Assembly (NCBI RefSeq): GCF_004087915.1
Contig: NZ_CP035108.1
Span: 806,001-870,000, forward strand
Origin: Geovibrio thiophilus
GTDB lineage: Bacteria; Chrysiogenota; Deferribacteres; Deferribacterales; Geovibrionaceae
Length of the DNA stretch: 64,000 bases
Direction: 5' to 3'
Part shown: one piece after another, positions 4,431 through 17,202 of the stretch
Layout of the letters: each line of letters starts with the position of its first letter
Position numbering within the stretch: position 1 is the stretch's first letter
Notes under the pieces: model-generated
Told to the model about the DNA's origin: nothing
Database searches by the model: none
The model's input: the letters and a program-made list of their open reading frames with translations, nothing else
Made by a program: the position numbers and the translations under genes

Positions 4431-5672
4431 TCAGTCAAGTCCCGGTGGGGGGAACTTGCTGCACAGCTCCTTGACATCCTGCGCCGTTTTGGCGAGGAAT
4501 TCGGCGTTATCCCAGTTATCTATGACTGCGCTGATGAACTCAGCAGTTTTTCTCGTTTCTTCTTCCTTAAACCCTCTGGAAGTAACCGCTGCGAGACCGA
4601 GTCTGATTCCGCTTGGGTCGAAGGGCTTTCTCTTGTCATAGGGAACAGAGTTGCAGTTGAGGACTATGCCTGCCTCATCAAGGGCTTTAGCCGCCTGTTT
4701 CCCCGTGATGTTTTTGTTCGTGAGGTCTATAAGCAGAAGGTGGTTGTCCGTTCCGCCTGTAACAAGCTGAAATCCCTTTGCGAGGAGTGTCTCAGCCATT
4801 ATTTTTGCGTTTTTGACTATCTGGTGACCATATTCCTTAAATTCGGGGGTCATAGCCTCTTTCAGAGCAACTGCGATGGCGGCTGTTGTGTGGTTGTGGG
4901 GTCCGCCCTGTATTCCGGGGAAAACTGCCTTGTCAATAGCCGCTTTGTGCTGCTCTTTACAGAGGATCATGCCGCCTCTGGGTCCTCTGAGCGTTTTATG
5001 GGTCGTTGTGGTGACAACATCCGCATAGGGGACAGGGCTGGGGTGTGCGCCCGCCGCCACGAGACCCGCGAAGTGAGCCATATCCACAAAGAGGATAGCG
5101 CCGACTTCGTCCGCTATTTCACGGAATTTTTTGAAGTCAAGCTGGCGGGGGTATGCGGAGTGACCGGCTATTATCATTTTGGGCTTGCTTTCAAGAGCGA
5201 GTTTTCTGATGGTGTCGTAGTTGAGGAGTCCCGTTTCCTGATCAAGCTCGTAGGAAACTATATTGAAATACTTGCCTGTGATGCTCACGGGGGAGCCGTG
5301 TGTGAGGTGTCCGCCGTGGGGAAGAGCCATACCCATTACGGTTTCGCCGGGTTTCACGAAGGCGAGGTATACCGCAAGGTTGGCGGGTGAGCCGGAGTAG
5401 GGCTGAACATTTGCGTGGTCGGCGCCGAAGAGCTCTTTCGCTCTTTCGATGGCAATTTCCTCAATGGGGTCGATGAACTGCTGACCCTCATAGTAGCGTT
5501 TGCCCGGGTAGCCTTCGGAGTATTTGTTTGTGAGAACAGTTCCCGAAGCCTCAAGCACTGCACGGGTAACGTAGTTTTCGGAAGCTATAAGACGTATTTT
5601 GTCTATCTGCCTCTGTTCTTCCTTGATGATGAGATCATAAACGGCGGGGTCAAAGTTTTTGAGATTCTGCAT
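4431..5672 (-). CDS. glyA: Serine hydroxymethyltransferase
   Basis: A 413-residue PLP enzyme, full family length, converting serine and tetrahydrofolate to glycine and 5,10-methylene-tetrahydrofolate. Visible landmarks are 'IASENY' near the N-terminus, '[13 protein letters not shown]', '[11 protein letters not shown]' and the Schiff-base lysine in '[14 protein letters not shown]' (about Lys226). The ATG at 5672 has GGGAGGA eight bases upstream; the longer in-frame start at 5690 would swallow that site. The gene stands alone behind a ZTP riboswitch, so its expression is probably tied to folate/one-carbon status. Confidence 0.97.
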
Positions 5673-5697
5673 TAAAATCCTCCCATACATACGGGCG

Positions 5698-5985: not shown

Positions 5986-6042
5986 ATCACAATCACAGGT
6001 CAGGTTCATGAACAGATTAAGACGAGGAATAAGGAGGCAGTT

Positions 6043-6495
6043 ATGACTCGGTTAACCGTTACCAAAAAAGCAGTTTCCTATGAGGTCGGCGACATTGTGG
6101 TGAAGCTGGACAGTTTAGGGGACGACAAGGTCTTGATATTCAACAATGTTGCGGCATTTATCTGGAAAATAATGGAATCATCGCCTGCAATTACATTGGT
6201 GGATTTGGTTGAGAAAATTGAACTTAAATACGACGTTTCACAGAAAGATGTGATTCGTGATGTGAGGATTTTTCTTGAATCCCTTGTTTATCTGGAGATG
6301 ATCGACGCAGTGCCTATTTCGTTTGATGGTCTGAAAACCGCCGCTGCCAGAAGCGAAAGAGAAAGCTACAGACCCCCGAAAATATATATATACGATTTGA
6401 AGACAGATGAAGAGGTTCCTTTCGGTCCTCATATAAAGGGGCGTACATACACCCACAGAGCGATCACCAAATCATGGCACGGCGGCTGCTGCTGA
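6043..6495 (+). CDS. PqqD-like RiPP recognition protein with a Cys-Cys C-terminal tail
   Basis: 150 residues. Residues about 8-95 fit a PqqD/RRE winged fold, with 'LIFNNVAAFIWKIM', 'KYDVSQKDVIRDVRIFLESLVYLEMID'. RRE domains hold the leader of a precursor peptide for a radical SAM enzyme. Residues about 96-150 are not part of a normal PqqD domain. The tail contains 'RPPKIYIYDL', a charged stretch, then 'HRAITKSWHGGCC' at the extreme end. The next gene, 21 bases on, is a radical SAM/SPASM enzyme. The tail may be the peptide substrate fused to its own recognition domain, because no separate precursor gene is visible. It is also possible that the tail only binds metal. Confidence 0.8.
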   Translation: MTRLTVTKKAVSYEVGDIVVKLDSLGDDKVLIFNNVAAFIWKIMESSPAITLVDLVEKIELKYDVSQKDVIRDVRIFLESLVYLEMIDAVPISFDGLKTAAARSERESYRPPKIYIYDLKTDEEVPFGPHIKGRTYTHRAITKSWHGGCC

Positions 6496-6516
6496 CAGAT
6501 ATAAAGACGGGCTGTT

Positions 6517-7581
6517 ATGGATAAAAAAACTTATGCCATTGAGTACCCCGACGGGGAGTATGAGAACATACTTTTAACTCATGCCGCAGAAAAAAAAGTA
6601 CCGATACAGGGAGAGATTGAAATTACATCCAAATGTAATTTCGGGTGTATCCACTGTTACGCAGATCAGGAAAAATCATCAATGAATCCTGTTCTCTTCA
6701 TGCGCATTGCGGATCAGTTAAGGCAAAACGGCTGTATCTGGCTGCTTGTCACAGGAGGAGAACCGCTTATTCATGAAGCTTTTGATGAGATGTGGATTTA
6801 TGCGCACAGCATCGGACTCAGGCTCTCCCTGTTTACCAACGGCTCAATGCTGATTGATAAAAAAATCAGTGTGCTTAAGCAGGCTCCGCCGGAGAATATT
6901 GAAGTGTCAATTTACTCATTATCCGAGCAGACACAAAGGATAATTACGGGCAGCGCTCAGGATATTAACTCCTTGCTCAGCAGACTGCACAGTCTCAAGG
7001 CTGTATCCCGTATTGTGCTGAAAACACCTTTATTAACTGAGAATGTAGAAGAAATAGACAAAATCGAACAGTTGGCAAAAGAAAACGGTTTCAGTTTCAG
7101 AATGGATGCGGTGATACATCCTGCTCTCAGCGGTGACTGCTCCTCTGTCAGTCACCGTGTTCCCGCGGATAAGGCGGCTTCTGTGGTCATGAAAGATCCT
7201 GCCATGCGTGAGCAGCTCAGAGAAAGTAACTCTCACAACAGACTTCCTTTTGAAACCGAAGGTTACCTGTTTCCATGTTCTGCCGGTAAGTACAGCTTCC
7301 ACATAGATAATGAAGCAAATCTCAGCATGTGCTCGATTTACAGAAACAGAGCGGGGTGTTTGAAAGAAGAAAGCTTTTCATCCGTCTGGAAACGTTTGAC
7401 AGATTTACGAGAAACAAAAGCCAGCCCTAATAAGCGGTGCAGTGAATGTAAAATTAAAAATATCTGCCCGACCTGTCCGGCAGTGGGGAAACTGCACAAC
7501 AGGGAGCATGATTATATTGATGAGTACATCTGTCAGTATACCCATGAGATTGCCGCATTGTCCGGAATTAAGCTGCTGTAA
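6517..7581 (+). CDS. Radical SAM / SPASM peptide-modifying enzyme
   Basis: 354 residues. The radical SAM cluster motif is Cys40, Cys44, Cys47 in 'SKCNFGCIHCY', followed by the SAM-binding 'VTGGEPL' loop. The C-terminal SPASM region has Cys272, Cys281, Cys308, Cys311, Cys317, Cys320 and Cys339, the pattern that binds two auxiliary 4Fe-4S clusters in PqqE/MftC/AlbA relatives. Such enzymes form C-C or thioether cross-links in ribosomal peptides. Coupling to the PqqD-like gene upstream supports a peptide substrate. No protease or exporter is adjacent, so the product and its fate are unknown. The gene ends 15 bases from the convergent next gene. Confidence 0.9.
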   Translation: MDKKTYAIEYPDGEYENILLTHAAEKKVPIQGEIEITSKCNFGCIHCYADQEKSSMNPVLFMRIADQLRQNGCIWLLVTGGEPLIHEAFDEMWIYAHSIGLRLSLFTNGSMLIDKKISVLKQAPPENIEVSIYSLSEQTQRIITGSAQDINSLLSRLHSLKAVSRIVLKTPLLTENVEEIDKIEQLAKENGFSFRMDAVIHPALSGDCSSVSHRVPADKAASVVMKDPAMREQLRESNSHNRLPFETEGYLFPCSAGKYSFHIDNEANLSMCSIYRNRAGCLKEESFSSVWKRLTDLRETKASPNKRCSECKIKNICPTCPAVGKLHNREHDYIDEYICQYTHEIAALSGIKLL

Positions 7582-7596: not shown

Positions 7597-8883
7597 TCAT
7601 CCTCTCTCTCTCAGCTTTTCCGCAAGCCTTCCGAAATAGCGGGATTTGATCTGCTCGCTTGCCATTGCCTGCTTTACGGGCGGCAGCTTGAGGATTGCGC
7701 CGAGAACAGCCGCCATTGCTCTATGGGAAAAGAGGGCACGGTTGTCGAATATAAGGTGCTCCAGCCCGCCGCGTTCGATAGCCATCATCACTGCCTTGTG
7801 CACAGAGTTTTCCGGCGTGATTATCCGTTTGCCTCTGTATTCCATGGAGATTGCCTTAGCAGGGCATACACGGACGCATACGCCGCAGCCGAGACAGACA
7901 TCGCTGTCAAGCTTAACTTTTTTCTTTCTTGGTTTATGCGGATCATTTGCCGAAACCATTCCCAGAGCCTCCACAGGGCAGACCTCGGCACATTTTCCGC
8001 AGCCCGTGCAGGCGTGTTCATCTATTTCGGGAATGTAGTTTGATGTGTGCACAGGGTTCATTATGCCGAACCTGCGGGCGGCTATCATCGCTTCGCAGCA
8101 GCATCCGCAGCAGTTACAGATGAAGCAGACTTCTTTTTTGACATTTTCGCCGAACTGGACAAGATTGCTTTCGTATGCCTGATGAAGGAGATCCGTCCCC
8201 TCTTTCCCGTCCACCCTGCGGGCATATCCGTGGCGGATCAGCGAGTCCGCAACCGTGCCGAAAGTCATACATATGTCCATCGGCGCACCGCATGCAGTGC
8301 CCATATGCTCCATCTTGTGGCGGCAGTAGCACATGCTTACGCCCATGTGTTCTGCTGTTTTTATAACTTCGCTTGCCTTCTCATAGTCCAGTATGTGCAT
8401 GCTGCTTTCTTCACTGAGGGCGCTTTCGTTTACAAAAACCCGTCCGAGCTGGGTTTCACCTCTGACAAAGAGAGATTTTATGAAGTCTTCCTCGACTGTA
8501 ATGTACTGATAAAACAGCTCGCTGAGATATTGCTGGTCTATGTCGCCTCTGGTGCGCATCATGGAAAACTCGAAGAAGCCCGCCATCGGCGGCGGCAGAA
8601 CATAGTGGGTCTGCCCGTCTGTTTCCATGTCAAGGATCAGGACTTTATCTGCGAAGGAGTCCAGCTTTTTCCTTGCCTCGGTTTCGGAAATTTTCCAGAT
8701 TTCAGCCGCCTGCTTTGCAGTGAAGGGTTTTATGGGTATCTGCGCCAGATAACGCGCGTCCTCTTCACTCATGAGGACAGAGAGGATTTTAAAAAGATTT
8801 TCGCTTAAGGGTGCTCCCTGCGGAAAGCGGTTCAGCCTGTCTGCCAGCTCTCTGAAGCCGTTTCTTGCTGTTAGATGTGCCAT
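7597..8883 (-). CDS. 4Fe-4S dicluster protein with extra Cys motifs
   Basis: 428 residues. An N-terminal helical part without cofactors (about 1-170) is followed by 'CYCRHK...GTACGAPMDIC', then a run 'CFICNCCGCCC', then two ferredoxin-type clusters 'CTGCGKCAEVCP' and 'CLGCGVCVRVCP'. The protein looks soluble, with no signal or membrane helix. Homologous 4Fe-4S proteins of this layout occur in many anaerobes without a defined reaction; an electron-transfer role is all the sequence supports. A GGAGGGCAG ribosome site precedes the ATG. It is transcribed alone, with a large palindrome in its upstream region. Confidence 0.8.
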   Translation of the reverse strand: MAHLTARNGFRELADRLNRFPQGAPLSENLFKILSVLMSEEDARYLAQIPIKPFTAKQAAEIWKISETEARKKLDSFADKVLILDMETDGQTHYVLPPPMAGFFEFSMMRTRGDIDQQYLSELFYQYITVEEDFIKSLFVRGETQLGRVFVNESALSEESSMHILDYEKASEVIKTAEHMGVSMCYCRHKMEHMGTACGAPMDICMTFGTVADSLIRHGYARRVDGKEGTDLLHQAYESNLVQFGENVKKEVCFICNCCGCCCEAMIAARRFGIMNPVHTSNYIPEIDEHACTGCGKCAEVCPVEALGMVSANDPHKPRKKKVKLDSDVCLGCGVCVRVCPAKAISMEYRGKRIITPENSVHKAVMMAIERGGLEHLIFDNRALFSHRAMAAVLGAILKLPPVKQAMASEQIKSRYFGRLAEKLRERG

Positions 8884-9171: not shown

Positions 9172-9226
9172 GTTCGGGGAAATTATGAAGAGAGATATGT
9201 TATGAGGGATGAGCAGGAGGTCAAAC

Positions 9227-10531
9227 GTGATTAAGAAATTATTATTGCTTGCGGGAATTGTCTGTATTTCCGTATTTCAGGCAAATGCGGAGACATGCGT
9301 CACCGCTCAGTGTCATGCGGACATAAAACAATATGAGGTGCTCCACGCTCCGGTCGAGGCTGATGAATGCACAACATGCCACATAATGGATGACTATGAG
9401 CAGCATATAGACGAGCCAACTCAATTTAAGGAGTTTTCATCTCCCGCTGAGGAGGGTCCGGTGTGCCTTGTCTGCCATGATGAAAAAGGGGACAAAAAGT
9501 TTGTGCACGCTCCTGTCGAAGGGGGGGACTGCACGGCATGCCACAACCCCCACGGCGGAACGAACAAATTTCTGCTGATTACCGCTACCGAATCTGAAAC
9601 ATGCTTTCAGTGCCATGAAAATGATAAAATGAGCAAGAAATTCCTCCACGGTCCGGTTGGTGCCGGAGAATGTGCCTCATGCCATGATCCGCACTCCTCC
9701 GATCATCAGTACCAGCTTAAAGCCGAAAAGAATGAACTATGCTTCATATGCCACTCGGATAAAAAGGCTGATTTGTCAAAGGTTAGTGTGCATGCTCCCG
9801 TTGCGGATGACTGCACCCAGTGCCACGATCCCCACAACTCGGACGCCAAGTTCCACCTGAAGGCGACTGATGAGAAGACTCTCTGCCTCACCTGCCACGG
9901 CGACATGGATCCTGCCTTTAAGGAGAATATCCTGACGGCGCAGTTTAAACACCAGCCCGTTGAGGACGGAAGCTGCGGCGAATGCCACAACCCCCACGCC
10001 TCCGACTTCGGTCAGCTCCTCCGTTCGGACACCAAGCAGATCTGCTTTGAATGCCATCAGGATCTGGGCAGCAGGATAGAACATTCGCAGTATATTCACG
10101 CTCCGGTTGAGTTTGACGGCTGCAACGCCTGCCACAATGTGCACGGTTCAGGCAATCCGTTCATTCTGTATGAGCACTTTCCTAAAACATTCTACAACCA
10201 GTACACGGAAGGCATGTACAAAATATGCTACGAATGCCACGACACGGGCAACCTCGAATCAGCCACGACGGACGGAACAGGCTTCCGCAACGGCGAACAG
10301 AACCTGCATTATCTGCATGTTATGATTCCCGGCAAGGGCAGAAGCTGCAAGGCATGCCATGAGGTGCACGCATCCAACCAGCCGCTCCACATAAGAAACA
10401 GTGTGCCTTTCGGCTCCGGCGGATGGGAGCTTCCCATTAAATTTACCCGTAACGAAAACGGCGGAACCTGCGTAGTGGGCTGCCATAAACCGAAAACATA
10501 CGACAGGGTGAATGAGTTTCAGAATCCCTAA
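9227..10531 (+). CDS. Periplasmic multiheme cytochrome c, 15 predicted hemes
   Basis: About 434 residues. GTG at 9227 is chosen: AGGAGG lies seven bases upstream and the product begins MIKKLLLLAG... with a signal peptide cut near 'NANA/ET'. There are 13 CXXCH sites plus one CX4CH at the mature N-terminus (CVTAQCH) and one CX3CH near the end (CVVGCH). Many sites are followed by 'NPHG', 'DPHS' or 'NVHG', the doubled-CXXCH/decaheme repeat style. Repeated 'HAPV' and 'HGPV' segments probably supply distal His ligands. It would act as a periplasmic electron carrier. The downstream gene, nine bases on, is a thioredoxin-like/TPR protein. Confidence 0.92.
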   Translation: MIKKLLLLAGIVCISVFQANAETCVTAQCHADIKQYEVLHAPVEADECTTCHIMDDYEQHIDEPTQFKEFSSPAEEGPVCLVCHDEKGDKKFVHAPVEGGDCTACHNPHGGTNKFLLITATESETCFQCHENDKMSKKFLHGPVGAGECASCHDPHSSDHQYQLKAEKNELCFICHSDKKADLSKVSVHAPVADDCTQCHDPHNSDAKFHLKATDEKTLCLTCHGDMDPAFKENILTAQFKHQPVEDGSCGECHNPHASDFGQLLRSDTKQICFECHQDLGSRIEHSQYIHAPVEFDGCNACHNVHGSGNPFILYEHFPKTFYNQYTEGMYKICYECHDTGNLESATTDGTGFRNGEQNLHYLHVMIPGKGRSCKACHEVHASNQPLHIRNSVPFGSGGWELPIKFTRNENGGTCVVGCHKPKTYDRVNEFQNP

Positions 10532-10540
10532 GGAGGCTTT

Positions 10541-11461
10541 ATGAGAAAAACCGCACTTGCGCTTGCCGCAGTTTTTATGAGCTTCGCCGCATTCGCCTTC
10601 CCTCTGAAAGAGATTAAAGAGGGAGACAGGGTGGATATGAAGAAATTTGCCTATTCTTCAAAAGCTTATACTGATAAAGAGGATAAGGCGCCATTGAAGG
10701 TTCTTCTCCTCTGGAAAGGGGATAAGAGGCTCAGCAAAAACACCTTTGAGGAGTTCAAGCAGTTCTGTGAAAAGAGCGATGTTGTGTGCGTTGCCGTGGA
10801 GCTGGGTGTTGATGAAACGCTGAAACCAGTGAAAAATGTTATATATGCTGCTGATACCGTTAAAATGACCGACTCATGGGGGATATTTACGCTTCCGGTG
10901 ACCCTTGTGCTGGACGGTGACAACAAAATTATCCATGGTCTCGGCTTTGAAGGGCAGTACAGGGCTAAGCTTGAGAAGTTCATTGAGCTGAAGCAGGGAA
11001 AGATCTCTGAGGCTGAGTACCAGAAGATTACCAATGTGCAGGGTGTTGACAAAACTGTCAGCAAACTGCCGGAAATAAACTTCGCTAAAAATATGATAAA
11101 GAGCGGGCAGACTGAGGATGCCCGCAAACGCCTTGCCGAGATTGACCCCGCAGCTCTGAGCGATACGGAGAAGACAAGACTGGCGGAGGCATATTTCATG
11201 CTTAAGGAATACGGCGGAGCTCTGGAGATTCTGAAAGGCATCAAGAGCACGGTTCCGGAGGTCAGGTTTCTTCTCGGCTATGCCTACATGCAGACAAAAA
11301 ACTATGAAGAGGCTTTAAGCGAGCTTGAATCAGTGAAGGATATTTACCCCCGCAAAGAGCGTGTCTACTACGCTCTGGCAAAAATATACTACGAAAAAGA
11401 TATGTACAAGGAAGCGGCGGATTACTTTAATCGCTGCTGTGAGATAGTGATCGATTTTTAA
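10541..11461 (+). CDS. Exported thioredoxin-fold/TPR protein (cytochrome partner 1)
   Basis: 306 residues with a signal peptide (MRKTALALAAVFMSFAAFA). Residues about 45-150 look like a thioredoxin/TlpA fold: 'LKVLLLWKG', 'WGIFTLPVTLVLDGDNKIIHGLGFEG' with the cis-Pro position. There is no CXXC, so it is not a disulfide enzyme. Residues about 180-306 are TPR helices ('YEEALSELESVKDIYPRKERVYYALAKIYYEKDMYKEAADYFNRC'). A paralogous protein sits behind the 28-heme cytochrome at 18165-19100, so the pair may help multiheme cytochrome maturation, docking or export. That role is inferred from position. Confidence 0.8.
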   Translation: MRKTALALAAVFMSFAAFAFPLKEIKEGDRVDMKKFAYSSKAYTDKEDKAPLKVLLLWKGDKRLSKNTFEEFKQFCEKSDVVCVAVELGVDETLKPVKNVIYAADTVKMTDSWGIFTLPVTLVLDGDNKIIHGLGFEGQYRAKLEKFIELKQGKISEAEYQKITNVQGVDKTVSKLPEINFAKNMIKSGQTEDARKRLAEIDPAALSDTEKTRLAEAYFMLKEYGGALEILKGIKSTVPEVRFLLGYAYMQTKNYEEALSELESVKDIYPRKERVYYALAKIYYEKDMYKEAADYFNRCCEIVIDF

Positions 11462-11476
11462 GAGACAGCCGCTTCT

Positions 11477-11570
11477 GCGCTCCCGAGGACGGGAGCGCGC
11501 CGTGCGTGCGAAGCCGCCTTGATGGCGGCGCGAGCGTGTGTAAAAATTTTCATGGATGACAAATTTTTAC
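11477..11570 (+). repeat. Modular hairpin repeat, copy B
   Basis: Hairpin 1: GCGCTCCC-GAGGAC-GGGAGCGC (11477-11498). Core with the GCCGTGCG...GCGAAG family sequence and inner hairpin GCCGCC-TTGAT-GGCGGC (11513-11529). Hairpin 3: GTAAAAATTTTC (11540-11551), loop ATGGAT, and the complementary arm to 11570 with a single bulged C. Confidence 0.78.
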
Positions 11571-11645
11571 TGTCAAATCAGAGCGGCGGATTACTTTAAT
11601 CGCTGCTGTGAGATAGTGATCGATTTTTAAGAGACAGCCGCTTCT

Positions 11646-11740
11646 GCGCTCCCGAGGACGGGAGCGCGCCGTGCGAGCGAAGCCGCCTTGATGGCGGCGC
11701 GAGCGTGTATTCAAAATTTCCATGGATGACAAATTTTTAC
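11646..11740 (+). repeat. Modular hairpin repeat, copy C
   Basis: The duplicate of copy B within the second tandem unit. Hairpin 1 is identical. Hairpin 3 keeps loop ATGGAT but its 5' arm has drifted (CAAAATTTCC) and pairing is less regular. Confidence 0.75.
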
Positions 11741-11767
11741 TGTTAAATTTGAAAAAATAAAAAAGAA

Positions 11768-11807
11768 GGGGCTGTCCTAGATTATTTCGATTATCTAGGA
11801 CAGCCCC
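11768..11807. terminator. Strong bidirectional hairpin between convergent cytochrome operons
   Basis: Perfect 15-bp arms GGGGCTGTCCTAGAT / ATCTAGGACAGCCCC around a ten-base loop. On the - strand it is followed by CTTCTTTTTTATTTTTT, a good U tract, so it should end the - strand cytochrome operon. The GGGGCTGTCC start resembles some IS ends, but no transposase is present. Confidence 0.72.
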
Positions 11808-11889
11808 AAAATTTATTCTCATGCAGACTAAACTTTTTGTCCATCGTCATACGTCACTCAGCTGGCTCAGGATGACGTTTATGCTGTAA

Positions 11890-12072
11890 CAGTTCCAAGG
11901 AAGGGACTGCGCCGTGCGAAGCGAAGCCGCCTTGATGGCGGCGCGAGCGTGTATTCAAAATTTTCATGGATGACAAATGTTTAATTATTAAGAAAAGATG
12001 CTGCGCCGTGCGAGCGAAGGGCGGTTTATCCGCCCGCAAGCGGTTCAGCCGGACGACAGGATGTGCGTCCGG
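11890..12072 (+). repeat. Modular hairpin repeat, copies D and D'
   Basis: Copy D: CAGTTCC-AAGGAA-GGGACTG (11890-11909, one G-U pair), the core with GCCGCC-TTGAT-GGCGGC, then a hairpin with loop ATGGAT (11966-11971). Copy D' follows: core from 12004 with inner hairpin GGGCGG-TTTAT-CCGCCC, and a terminal hairpin CCGGACG / CGTCCGG (12049-12055, 12066-12072) around ACAGGATGTG. With copies B and C and the 11768 hairpin this fills the 623-base convergent gap. Confidence 0.72.
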
Positions 12073-12084
12073 TGATATTATCGA

Positions 12085-13098
12085 TCAGAAAAGGTTAGTC
12101 TTATCCCCGTAGCCTGCACCGTGGTAATGGCAGTTTGTGCAATTGGAGTCATAACCGCTAGGGTGAACGACTTCCTGAAGACCGTTGCCTGTTATTGCTC
12201 CGTCCGGACTCATATGGCAAAGGGCGCAGAGTTCCGTAAAGTTATTACCGGTCACGCTTACAGACGCATCAAGCGCATCAGCATCAGCATCCTCCGCGCT
12301 TTCACCGAAACGGGTGATGAGGTATGAGTTGTCTGATGTGTGCACCTCGTGGCACTGGGTGCAGCCTATCTCCATTGCGCTTGTATATGATGCACCGGGT
12401 CTGAACTGACCGAAGGTCTGTCCCAGACCGTCCTTAGCGCCGTGTATGTCCGCCGTGAGGGTCTGTCCTGCTATTCCTCTGAATGTGTCGAATATATTAG
12501 TGAAATCGCCGTCAAAAGCCAGTACGGGCGGTGTGATGCCGAAGGCTCCGTTTCCGTCATGGCATGTAAGACAGAAATCTGTGGCGGAAGTGTAAGTTTC
12601 CGTGCTCTGTCTGAAATCTCTGGCGAAGTTAACTGCGCCGTTCATGTCTGTGTACTGATGGCATATCACACAATCGGAGTTGCCGATTTTGCCGTCTCCG
12701 TCAAGGTCGTGCATTGTCGCATGACCGCCGAAAAGGGAGGCGGAAGCAACTACTGACGGGTCAGCGTGGCAGAGGGTGCACTGGTAGCTTTCGGCGGTTA
12801 CGCCTTTTATGCCGTTTGTTCCGTGGCAGTAGAGGCATGCGCCTATGTCGTCCGCATCAACTTTTTTGAAGCTGTCAGCAAGGGCAGGGTTGTATGAATG
12901 TATTTCATCAAGCTGATTTGACGGATGGCAGAGTGAGCAGTCCTCTCTTTCCCATCCGCTGTGGCTTTTGGAGTCTGTAAGCTGAGGTATGCCTATGGCG
13001 TTTTTCTGCGCTGATGAGTTGCTTGAGCTGTTGCTTCCGCAGGCAGCGGCAGATGCCAGAATCATTAATGAAACAATGCAGTAAATAAAAACTCTCAC
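12085..13098 (-). CDS. Octaheme c-type cytochrome lipoprotein
   Basis: About 337 residues with eight CXXCH sites (CSLCH, CLYCH, CTLCH, CVICH, CLTCH, CTQCH, CALCH, CTNCH). GTG at 13098 gives MRVFIYCIVSLMILASAAAC with a lipobox-like Cys and then Gly/Ser linker, and has GGGGTGA upstream; an ATG at 13134 is the alternative, two bases after the previous stop. Lipidation and a Ser/Asn-rich linker suggest an outer-membrane or surface protein. Last gene of the 11-gene operon, so it may be a terminal surface reductase of the conduit. Confidence 0.85.
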   Translation of the reverse strand: MRVFIYCIVSLMILASAAACGSNSSSNSSAQKNAIGIPQLTDSKSHSGWEREDCSLCHPSNQLDEIHSYNPALADSFKKVDADDIGACLYCHGTNGIKGVTAESYQCTLCHADPSVVASASLFGGHATMHDLDGDGKIGNSDCVICHQYTDMNGAVNFARDFRQSTETYTSATDFCLTCHDGNGAFGITPPVLAFDGDFTNIFDTFRGIAGQTLTADIHGAKDGLGQTFGQFRPGASYTSAMEIGCTQCHEVHTSDNSYLITRFGESAEDADADALDASVSVTGNNFTELCALCHMSPDGAITGNGLQEVVHPSGYDSNCTNCHYHGAGYGDKTNLF

Positions 13099-13136
13099 GG
13101 ATTCACCCCGTTTTGTTGCTATATGTTCTTTCATCG

Positions 13137-13706
13137 TCAGTTATTCCTGTGGCAGTCTATGCAGAAGGATGCCTTGTGGCAGCTGTCGCACGATGCCGGA
13201 TCCATCATTGCCTCTACAGAGTGAACAAGCCTGAACGCTCTTGGATGTCTGTATCCGTCTTTGGCGTACTGCTGACTGTGGCAGCTTTCGCAGTACCAGT
13301 CTGAGTGGCAGCTTTCGCAGCTCTTTTTATCCAGAGCAGCGGGCACGGCATGGAGCTTTGTCCACTGTGTGAGATGGTCTTCCGGCTTCATGGTCTTTAG
13401 GTTATCATGGCACACGTAGCAGTTCTGCGGGGCGGAGACGACCTTAGTTATCTCCTCCTTGTGGCAGGTGTGGCAGGTGTTGTCGATTTTCAGCTCGGCG
13501 CCGATTTTGAAGTCACTCCCTTTATTGATGAAGGTCTCAATATCGGGCAGCTTGTGGCAGTAGAAGCAGTCCTTTTTCTGTTCAAACAGAATGTTTACGT
13601 GCTGTTCGTGGTTGAACTTGACGTAAGGGGACTGGTAGTAAAACTTCGTACAGCCGAACAGAAGAACCGGCAGAACCAGTAAAAACCATGTTAATCGCTT
13701 ATTCAT
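13137..13706 (-). CDS. Heptaheme c-type cytochrome lipoprotein
   Basis: 189 residues: signal with lipobox LFGC (Cys19), then seven CXXCH sites (CFYCH, CHTCH, CYVCH, CESCH twice, CDSCH, CIDCH). Early 'KFNHEQHVNILFEQKKDCFYCHKL' resembles the class III (cytochrome c3/c7) pattern with a distal His ahead of the heme site. GAGGAAAATAGA precedes the ATG. It lies between the porin and the octaheme lipoprotein and is probably part of the outer-membrane conduit. Confidence 0.88.
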   Translation of the reverse strand: MNKRLTWFLLVLPVLLFGCTKFYYQSPYVKFNHEQHVNILFEQKKDCFYCHKLPDIETFINKGSDFKIGAELKIDNTCHTCHKEEITKVVSAPQNCYVCHDNLKTMKPEDHLTQWTKLHAVPAALDKKSCESCHSDWYCESCHSQQYAKDGYRHPRAFRLVHSVEAMMDPASCDSCHKASFCIDCHRNN

Positions 13707-13737
13707 CTATTTTCCTCGGTAAATTTTATATTCATTG

Positions 13738-15003
13738 TCAGAAGCTGTAAGTAGCTTTCACACCATACCTGTTTTCAGGCAGATAGCGGGTTTCCCTGTT
13801 GTTTTCGGCATATACGCTCACTGCCAGATCTTTTATCACATCATATTCAAGCTCGCCGTATATGGAGTATATGGATTCTTCTTTATCCATGCCGATTGTT
13901 CCGTTTTTGATTTCGGAACGTCCGATATATTCGGCTTCAAAGCTGAATCTCAGTTCTCTGAGTATGCTCCAGTCCAGCGAGAAGCTTACGCCGTTCGCTT
14001 CGGAATCGCTGCCGTCGTAGATGTACATTTCGATGTCGGATGTGAGTCCGTGGCTTTTGAAATGGTCTACACTGGCGCCGAATTTATATATGTCACCTGT
14101 TACCCATTCGCCGAAGTTATTCAGCAGGACAACATGGGTGGTTCCCTGATAAACCGTGTAGTGATCGTTTATTGCGTATTCGACGGTGTATGAATACCTA
14201 TCCTCTTTGCCGGATGAAAAGTTGGTTATAATGAGTTCGCCGAGCCTTTCAGAGCCGTCTTCAACTCTGATTCTCGTCGCGTCCGCAATAAGCCCCAGCT
14301 TTTTGTATCTGGCGTATACTCTTGCCATGCCTCTGTATACTTCGTCATCTTCCATGTCATAGTCTATTTTGCCGTCCAGAGAGAGGAAAACAGTTTTATC
14401 CCTTAGAGATACGAATCTTCTGCCCAGACCTAAGCCCATAAGCTCCTGTATAGTTCTGTCGCCGTCCTCCTCCTTGGAGTAGGAAACATAGCCGGTGTAG
14501 TTTTTTACACCGTTGAGGAACAGCCGTCCGCCGTAGAGCCTGTCGCCTGTATCCCTGAATGATTCATTGATGTGTCTGTCGTCCGAATCGAAGTACTCAG
14601 GCACGCCGCCGAAGGCGGTTACGCCGAAGTGCCAGTCGGTTCTTACGGTGGCTTCGGCACCGTCAAGGGTGAGAAATCTGTTTCCCATGAAGGAGAATCT
14701 GCCGAGCTTGATTTCAAGCGCTCTTTCAAAGCTGCTGAACTCAACATAGGCGGAGTAAATATCAGTGAAGCTCTCTCCGTCCTCCTCTGAGTAGGTTCCG
14801 TGGAAGTTGAACCCGAGATAAGGATTGATAAGTTTGACATTATCAAGTATCAGCGTGTTTTCCCATGTTCCTTCCGTGTCCCCCCCTTTTTCCTCGGAGC
14901 TTTCATAAGAAGTCGAGAAAGAGCCGTCGATGCTGAAGGAATAAGCGTTCTGCACCGAGCCCGCTAAAAGAACAAAAATTAAAAATCCCCTTAAAAGTTT
15001 CAC
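13738..15003 (-). CDS. Outer-membrane beta-barrel protein (conduit porin candidate)
   Basis: 421 residues: signal peptide to about residue 22, then alternating hydrophobic/polar strands rich in Tyr, Ser, Asp and Gly, and a terminal '...YGVKATYSF' with Phe last, the standard BamA signal of outer-membrane barrels. Motifs such as 'LEIKLGRFSF' and 'LRELRFSFEAEYIG' look like antiparallel strands. There are no heme sites. It lies between a 9-heme and a 7-heme lipoprotein, the arrangement of porin-cytochrome complexes (MtrCAB, Geobacter PCC), although no similarity to MtrB is evident by eye. Confidence 0.85.
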   Translation of the reverse strand: MKLLRGFLIFVLLAGSVQNAYSFSIDGSFSTSYESSEEKGGDTEGTWENTLILDNVKLINPYLGFNFHGTYSEEDGESFTDIYSAYVEFSSFERALEIKLGRFSFMGNRFLTLDGAEATVRTDWHFGVTAFGGVPEYFDSDDRHINESFRDTGDRLYGGRLFLNGVKNYTGYVSYSKEEDGDRTIQELMGLGLGRRFVSLRDKTVFLSLDGKIDYDMEDDEVYRGMARVYARYKKLGLIADATRIRVEDGSERLGELIITNFSSGKEDRYSYTVEYAINDHYTVYQGTTHVVLLNNFGEWVTGDIYKFGASVDHFKSHGLTSDIEMYIYDGSDSEANGVSFSLDWSILRELRFSFEAEYIGRSEIKNGTIGMDKEESIYSIYGELEYDVIKDLAVSVYAENNRETRYLPENRYGVKATYSF

Positions 15004-15018
15004 TCTGTTCTCCTGAAA

Positions 15019-17202
15019 TTAAAATGAAGTAAGGTCGTTTATCGAGAGCTCAAGCAGTCTCGCTGCGTAACGGTAGTTATGCAGACCGAAGCTTTTATCC
15101 GAAATTATAAAGTTATAGTTGTAGGCAGCGCGGTTCAGGGCGCTTGTCAGGGCGGTGTTGCCCGTCACGCTGTAGGAGGCGGATATTTCACTTTCCGCCG
15201 CTCTTCCCGCGAGGGTGTTTATTCTTGCCTTAAGAGTGTCCATAAGAGTTCGTACATCCGCCGTTTTTCCCAGATAGTCGTACCTGCCGTCTGCGTCAGC
15301 CGTGACTCCCGTGTGGCATGAATCATTGCAGTAAGCGAGCCTGTCGCTTCTGTTTTCGCTCATTGCCATGCTGTGGGTTGTGCCTGCGTCTCTGTTCATA
15401 TGGCAGTCGGCGCAGTCAAGCAGAGCCTTGTGAGCAGCGGTGAGGCTAATTGTTTCGCCATAAGTCCAGCCGCCCTTGCCTTCAAACATCTCTGCCTGAG
15501 AGTTGTGGGGAACAGCGCCGATTCCCGCTCCGTCTGTGTTGTGGCATGTGTAGCATATTTTGCCGTCTCCTGCGTCTACAGTGACATTACCGCTGTAAAG
15601 CGTGAGCGTGTGGCTTCCCGATACTCTGAGCTGAGCGTTATGTCCGCCTTCACCGTGGGGGTCATGGCAGACATTGCAGGTTATGCCGCTGATTCTGTCC
15701 GTATCGGCGCGGGTTATTTCCGTTCCGAATATCATTCCGAGGGCTCCCTCTCCGCTGTGGCATTTGAAGCAGGCTTCATTTGTCACTACAATAGAGTTCG
15801 AGACTGTATGGGAATTTTCGTGTGTGCTTTCGCCGCCTGAGTCATGGAACTCAGCGAAGTGACCGCCGCTTTTGCCTGTGTCGTGGCAGGTGAGGCACAC
15901 GCCGGATGAGATTGATATGGTTGAGGGATGCCCCGTGAAGCTTATTGTGCCGCTCAGACCGCCTGTGAAGGTTGCTGTGGGACCGTGGCAGGCTTCGCAG
16001 GTAACGCCCTTGAGATGCGCGGATGCGCTGGAGGCGTCCGTATTAACCGTCATTGTATCGTCAAAACCGTAAACAGCCGGATAATCGTCCGTCCCGTTGC
16101 TGTTTCTGTCGGCTAAGAAAAGTCCTGTGCCGTGGCAGGTGGCGCATTCAGTGCTGTTTGCGTTTGTTACCGCCGTGTTATAGGCTCCGGCGTGTCCGCT
16201 TGCGCTCCAAGCAGTCTGGAGGTTTCTCATTATCTCCCTGCCGTACATATCTTTATGATCGGGAGCGGTGACGGAGCCGCTGTGGCAGAAAAGAAGGCAG
16301 TATGTTCTGTTGTTGTTTTTATCGTATGAATAGCCGAACACCTTGATTGTAAGGCTTTCTGAGGCTGTCTTGGTGCTTCCCGTAACAGTGGCGCTGACTG
16401 TGTAGTTTCCGAATGTGTCTGGAATGAACACTGCTTGGTTTCCGGAAACTAACGGAGTAAAAGAAGAACCGTCGGCTCTTTTTACTGTCCACTGAACATT
16501 CAGCACCGGTTCGCCGAACGCTGCCGTGTCAATATCGAGAGAGGTCTTCTCGCCGGGCTGCACATGCTCTGTTCCTCTTATCACGTCGGGAATCTGGATA
16601 TTTGACGGATCAGTGAAGTATTCGCTGTCCGCAAAGGCTTCTCTGTAGCTTTTGGACAGTAGCTTTATGAATTTCTTTGTCGCAGGAGTTTCAGCTTCGT
16701 TGAGGTACCCCGCGAAGAAGCTGAAAGGTATGTCAGTCGCGGAGCGGATAATCCCCGCTGCCGGTTTTGATGATGACTGAATGACTGCGCTGTTGTTTAT
16801 TATTGCGAGGAAAACAGTATTGGCGTCCGTTGCCGTGCCTGAAAGGGTGTAGGGTATTGTTATAACCGCGTCATATACAGCGGAAGGAGCCGAAGAGGAG
16901 GCTGCATCGGTAAATCTCACCGAAAAAACGGGAGAAAGAGCTGTGTAGCCGTCTTTGACATAGGCGGAGTCGGTTTTTTCTATGTATACAGTGGTTCCGG
17001 CGAGGGTCGGAATGCTCGCAGTGAGCGAAAAGCCTTCAAAGCTGCCTGTTCCTGTGTAGCTGAGTGTTCCGTCGGATGCGATCTTTGCGGTTGTAATGGT
17101 TCGTGTGTCGTCATCAACGGAAGGCTTGATACTGTCGCTCCCGCCGCATCCTCCGATCCATGCTATGCTTAATATAATCAATAAGACTCTAATAAATTTC
17201 AT
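15019..17202 (-). CDS. Large surface multiheme lipoprotein, 9 predicted hemes
   Basis: 727 residues. Lipobox GGC (Cys19) then Gly/Ser/Asp. The N-terminal third (to about 310) is beta-rich with an Ig/PKD-like segment ('NVQWTVKRADGSSFTPLVSGN...GNYTVSATVTGSTK'). The rest carries seven CXXCH (CATCH, CEACH, CLTCH, CFKCH, CNVCH, CYTCH, CADCH) and two CX3CH (CLLFCH, CNDSCH) sites. A helical tail ends the protein. Lipidation, Ig-like domains and position next to the porin suggest the extracellular terminal cytochrome. GAGGATAATAT precedes the ATG. Confidence 0.88.
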   Translation of the reverse strand: MKFIRVLLIILSIAWIGGCGGSDSIKPSVDDDTRTITTAKIASDGTLSYTGTGSFEGFSLTASIPTLAGTTVYIEKTDSAYVKDGYTALSPVFSVRFTDAASSSAPSAVYDAVITIPYTLSGTATDANTVFLAIINNSAVIQSSSKPAAGIIRSATDIPFSFFAGYLNEAETPATKKFIKLLSKSYREAFADSEYFTDPSNIQIPDVIRGTEHVQPGEKTSLDIDTAAFGEPVLNVQWTVKRADGSSFTPLVSGNQAVFIPDTFGNYTVSATVTGSTKTASESLTIKVFGYSYDKNNNRTYCLLFCHSGSVTAPDHKDMYGREIMRNLQTAWSASGHAGAYNTAVTNANSTECATCHGTGLFLADRNSNGTDDYPAVYGFDDTMTVNTDASSASAHLKGVTCEACHGPTATFTGGLSGTISFTGHPSTISISSGVCLTCHDTGKSGGHFAEFHDSGGESTHENSHTVSNSIVVTNEACFKCHSGEGALGMIFGTEITRADTDRISGITCNVCHDPHGEGGHNAQLRVSGSHTLTLYSGNVTVDAGDGKICYTCHNTDGAGIGAVPHNSQAEMFEGKGGWTYGETISLTAAHKALLDCADCHMNRDAGTTHSMAMSENRSDRLAYCNDSCHTGVTADADGRYDYLGKTADVRTLMDTLKARINTLAGRAAESEISASYSVTGNTALTSALNRAAYNYNFIISDKSFGLHNYRYAARLLELSINDLTSF

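Follow-up and report, generated by a model that had tools for sequence, protein, structure and literature searches.

Introduction

Known RREs are either discrete proteins or fused to enzymes, and [Y/W]xxPx[L/V/I/F/A] has been described as a motif that they recognize. In PQQ biosynthesis (PqqA/PqqD/PqqE), an RRE and a SPASM enzyme act on a ribosomal product, PqqA, a separate peptide in which Glu and Tyr are cross-linked. The SPASM enzymes of sactipeptides and ranthipeptides (SkfB, PapB, CteB) form Cys thioethers, and in these systems the enzyme usually carries the RRE as a fused domain and the precursor is separate. Precursors in which the core is joined to a folded domain are found in borosins, whose core is fused to the methyltransferase, and in proteusins, which have a nitrile-hydratase-like leader. 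To our knowledge, neither of them fuses the core to an RRE, and we found no instance of an RRE fused to its own precursor in two RRE surveys or in searches of openly licensed papers.

YxxPx[LVI] leaders are found with the discrete RREs of lasso pathways (TbiB1; NF033536) and in the LppB/LppA system of linear polyphosphorylated peptides. In the structure of LppB with its leader, the YxxP motif is hydrogen-bonded by Asn33 and Asp70; the N33A substitution nearly abolishes binding of the YxxP leader, and D70A reduces it (PMC13381572). Here we describe a two-gene operon of Geovibrio thiophilus in which an RRE and its precursor are probably fused in a single protein.

A two-gene operon encoding an RRE protein with a long tail

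The window analysed, a stretch of 64,000 nucleotides, harbours on its forward strand a gene for a 150-residue PqqD/RRE protein with a fused C-terminal tail, a candidate RRE-leader-core precursor (6043..6495), and, 21 bp downstream, a gene for a 354-residue radical SAM/SPASM enzyme (6517..7581), identified by Pfam matches, by relatives at 31-35% identity and by a phylogenetic tree. An AAGGAGG ribosome-binding site, read directly in the sequence, precedes the former (6031..6037), and its 150 codons end with ...KSWHGGCC-TGA. The neighbouring genes lie on the opposite strand, convergent or divergent to the pair: glyA (4431-5690) and a gene for an Fe-S protein (7597-8883). The operon therefore consists of two genes only. 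A third gene is absent from it, and neither a protease nor an exporter gene adjoins the pair. Both genes are located where the first-pass annotation had placed them, and its description of a 150-residue protein ending in WHGGCC, made of a PqqD-like domain and a long tail, with a radical SAM/SPASM enzyme as sole partner and neither protease nor exporter, holds: Pfam PqqD is matched by residues 27-82 (1e-8, above the cut-off), and the tail is ~58-60 residues long.

Codon statistics trained on 27 ORFs of the window favour frame +1 alone, with +0.43 in the RRE domain and +0.32 in the tail. This single continuous frame through domain and tail indicates that the tail is real coding sequence. By the same statistics, the 340 bp upstream of the gene are non-coding in all six frames. 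The TGA codon after WHGGCC is a genuine stop: we considered selenocysteine insertion, as in an SbtM-type selenopeptide, and rejected it, as neither a tRNA-Sec nor a SelB above cut-off is encoded in the genome, and there is no notable hairpin.

Beside the operon, the region 9209-17202 of the window encodes many CxxCH haem motifs indicative of multihaem cytochromes, with a beta-barrel-like protein between them. An intergenic repeat (11460-11983) consists of three copies, 64-92 nt long, that have AAGCCGCCTTGATGGCGGCGCGAGCGTGT in common; all lie within about 500 bp, and the rest of the window has none.

The RRE domain and its leader pocket

The RRE domain (residues 1-92; 6043..6318) is recognized at E 1.8e-8 by a hmm profile built from 68 PqqD sequences of relatives, from which the window protein was left out. 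Its best sequence match in the PDB, a weak one (E 0.05), is the lasso-pathway RRE TbiB1. Asn34 and Asp73 are the counterparts of LppB N33 and D70, and they are conserved in 67/71 and 70/71 sequences, respectively, of the aligned PqqD set. LppB and the window RRE thus share the Asn/Asp pocket, whereas TbiB1 has Asp/Asp. As judged from these retained residues, the window RRE has seemingly kept the ability to bind a YxxP leader, and its own tail provides the only such segment encoded nearby. Trans-acting RREs commonly have this Asn and Asp as well, and hence the two residues are no proof of binding in cis.

Despite the similarities in RRE and leader motif, the operon differs from lasso and LppB systems in that it lacks a cyclase (asparagine synthetase-like), a B2 peptidase and a kinase, has a radical SAM enzyme instead and carries the leader in cis. 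An RRE and a radical SAM enzyme being its only components, it does not belong with the lasso pathways, which are defined by the cyclase and the B2 peptidase.

The radical SAM/SPASM enzyme

Pfam matches of the enzyme are Radical_SAM (3e-16) and SPASM (6e-4), of which SPASM falls just short of the curated cut-off. The CNFGCIHC motif of the radical SAM cluster (C40, C44, C47; 6634..6657), with its CxxxCxxC triad intact, is kept in 30/30 relatives. The SPASM region (C254-C339; 7276..7533) harbours seven auxiliary-cluster cysteines, C254, C272, C308, C311, C317, C320 and C339, kept in 29-30/30 relatives, and the full set of such cysteines reported in the first-pass annotation is thus conserved in the family.

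Relatives of the enzyme belong to two other phyla (31-35% identity, E values down to 2e-59). In our tree, the enzyme falls within a 77-row clade, with support 100/100, that holds nearly all the clusters with YxxP precursors; its branch is long (1.76), and its exact place within the clade is unsure. The best PDB sequence match is SkfB (E 5e-12). PADLOC matches pointed to a Viperin-like protein, which we attribute to generic radical SAM similarity, since the best relatives and their neighbourhoods are RiPP clusters.

Scores against curated models separate the pair from several described RRE/SPASM systems. The enzyme reaches 45.9 bits for PqqE, for which the cut-off is 381, the RRE does not match the PQQ PqqD model, and the operon has no other PQQ gene. 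The SynChlorMet models ScmD and ScmE gave 19.4 (cut-off 100) and 46.3 (cut-off 400), and the GeoRSP equivalogs 12.9 (cut-off 100) and 54.3 (cut-off 400). The operon shares a SPASM enzyme with sactipeptide and ranthipeptide systems, but its RRE is fused to the presumed precursor rather than to the enzyme.

Related clusters with a separate precursor

We collected 68 stretches around enzyme matches and a few other loci, and ORFs were called in them; 65 loci contain a full enzyme match. A PqqD gene accompanies the enzyme gene in 62 of the 65, and in 46 of them a separate short precursor is also encoded. Most of these precursors have 48-90 residues (e.g. MKSQDKQQKQHYEKPVLRPIELIAEEVLAVGCKSVSTG...), and they share a [YW]xxPx[LIV] leader, an EEAVL or EEVLA stretch, in most cases three Cys residues and usually a GS-type end. 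No model in Pfam or NCBIfam matches them. An S24/S26-like peptidase is often encoded in these clusters and an ABC exporter sometimes; a further neighbour resembles an HPr-kinase-type protein by eye, with no Pfam match for the three copies compared. Two example loci of this RiPP family, within the series L193-L280, are L241 (4655-6201) and L242 (4768-6367). Tyr-type and Trp-type leaders both pair with RREs harbouring the Asn/Asp pocket, unlike the Bacillota rule (PMC13381572).

Compared with these YxxP-type PqqD/radical SAM-SPASM clusters, as we define them here, the window operon has the adjacent PqqD-type RRE of the same family, an enzyme of the same SPASM clade with all 3+7 cysteines and the same class of leader motif. 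It departs from them in lacking the separate three-Cys precursor, as its motif is found in the fused tail and its core Cys residues differ, with a CC end, and in lacking extra genes such as those for the S24/S26-like peptidase and the HPr-kinase-like protein.

The absence of a separate precursor gene, proposed in the first-pass annotation, was supported, as a search of the whole genome with the precursor profile gave no match at E<=10 and none was found in the non-coding upstream region. The annotation had also considered that homologues without the tail in the same pairing, or a separate short precursor gene conserved beside them, would speak against a fusion. Both occur, but in the relatives, and no separate precursor was found in the window genome. 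As the system with the tail is the very one that lacks a precursor gene, both findings argue for the fusion, not against it.

A less likely reading of these data is that the tail is an extension of the RRE rather than a substrate. It would dock the enzyme or, as an autoinhibitory or placeholder strand, fill the leader groove, and the true precursor, its leader having diverged, would be encoded at another place in the genome. Detection of precursors rests on a short motif, and a diverged one could therefore be missed; gene order is flexible, as in locus L193, where the precursor gene is upstream of the PqqD gene and not downstream of the enzyme gene, and the three cysteines of the relatives are absent from the core of the tail. 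This reading is weakened by the empty whole-genome search, by the non-coding upstream region and by the fact that no such extension is found in any of the 76 other PqqDs (0/76).

The C-terminal tail

The tail (residues 93-150; 6319..6492) sets the window protein apart, as none of the 76 other PqqDs compared has an equivalent. Among all 77 PqqD hits, the relatives and the window protein, the extension past the domain is 60 residues in the latter and 14 in the next longest. The tail includes YRPPKIYIYDLKTDEEV, in which Tyr, Pro, Ile, Leu and acidic residues are spaced as in the family. Its leader-like segment YRPPKIYIYDLKTDEEVPFG (residues 109-128; 6367..6426) has a YxxPxI motif, YRPPKI, and the spacing Y0-P3-I5-L10-(D/E)13-E14 matches that of the relatives' leaders. 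Shuffled tails scored as well against leader profiles in 12/5000 (0.24%), 80/20000 (0.4%) and 149/20000 (0.75%) cases, and YxxPx[IVLM] alone was present in 3.4% of the shuffles. The resemblance to precursors is limited to this motif: a broader profile gives the tail 1.5 bits, and by PSSM it ranks 55th of 3546 ORFs and would not stand out in an all-ORF search. This low rank is in keeping with a functional motif match, homology of the tail to precursors not being proven. A single-sequence AlphaFold model (pLDDT 49) shows the order bbb-aaa plus a strand at 113-118, a suggestive arrangement at low confidence.

The tail ends with WHGGCC (residues 145-150; 6475..6492), the putative modification site. 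It has no Cys after the leader other than the two terminal ones, whereas the relatives' cores have three spread Cys. Owing to this difference, the chemistry of the relatives, itself uncharacterized, is not simply transferable. A DNA-level scan of genome contigs for WHGGCC followed by a stop gave at least 120 loci, and among the matches listed all were due to chance. No second example of a fused RRE and tail was found in ~1,400 genomes, mostly from three phyla, and consequently nothing shows selection on the tail or on GGCC. A 142-residue PqqD-family protein of genome G029 (L004, 303-2837) has a C-terminal extension of ~45 residues without Cys; its gene adjoins HPr-kinase-like and glycosyltransferase-like genes, and the 3.2 kb covered at this locus contain no radical SAM gene.

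His and two Cys in WHGGCC could provide metal ligands and no protease or exporter is linked to the pair, which would fit with the tail being a metal-binding or Fe-S-delivery element for assembly of the SPASM cluster, or a metal or redox carrier, rather than a RiPP core. We deem this improbable, as the relatives' enzymes have the same cysteine set and pair with tail-less PqqDs, which argues that cluster assembly needs no tail, and as the tail also harbours a leader-type motif.

Distribution of the operon

The pair is present in 1/51 genomes of its own phylum, the other 50 being without it, and the search with the enzyme gave 1/50. No close relatives were found in viral contigs, in plasmids or in the same phylum. 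Relatives of the enzyme were identified in 25/395 genomes (at 1e-25) of the phylum of a MAG titled Deltaproteobacteria and in 53/346 genomes of that of a Nitrospirales MAG, within an overall search of ~1,400 genomes, some of them covered more than once, mostly from three phyla. The GC content of the operon (44.1%) is below that of the window (48.7%, sd 2.5), and its recent acquisition is thus likely.

This GC deviation, the presence in a single genome of the phylum, the long branch of the enzyme and the lack of the relatives' peptidase and other accessory genes might alternatively denote a horizontally acquired, partly decayed system, reduced by fusion and loss of export genes to a remnant of little or no function. 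Such decay appears rather implausible for a pair whose genes are both intact, with all catalytic cysteines present, and in which codon usage, a strong ribosome-binding site and the RRE pocket residues are maintained.

Proposed mechanism

Our preferred reading, to which we assign a probability of about 0.6, is that a single protein combines precursor and RRE and is modified in cis by the SPASM enzyme. The fusion idea of the first-pass annotation is favoured by the uniqueness of the tail among 77 PqqDs, its YxxPxI motif, the conserved pocket residues and the separate precursor of the relatives. The role as a redox or metal cofactor carrier that it also suggested gained no support here. The chain would comprise, in order, the RRE (residues 1-92), a linker, the YxxPxI leader (residues 109-128) and a short core ending with WHGGCC. 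The RRE would grip a YxxPxI segment, either its own or that of another copy of the protein, as an additional beta strand, and would recruit the SPASM enzyme. The latter would then act on the exposed C-terminal core via SAM-derived radical chemistry, plausibly at Cys149/Cys150.

It is also conceivable, though doubtful, that the tail is never cleaved and that its Cys-Cys end becomes a modified redox, metal or cross-linked group kept on the RRE. If so, the RRE protein itself would be the mature product, with a protein-borne cofactor made in cis.

Significance

The relatives constitute a sizeable RiPP family, with precursors that have yet to be covered by a Pfam or NCBIfam model. A two-gene system that dispenses with the step of association between peptide and RRE would be a compact means of testing how an RRE places the core for its SPASM enzyme, and it would also be useful for engineering.
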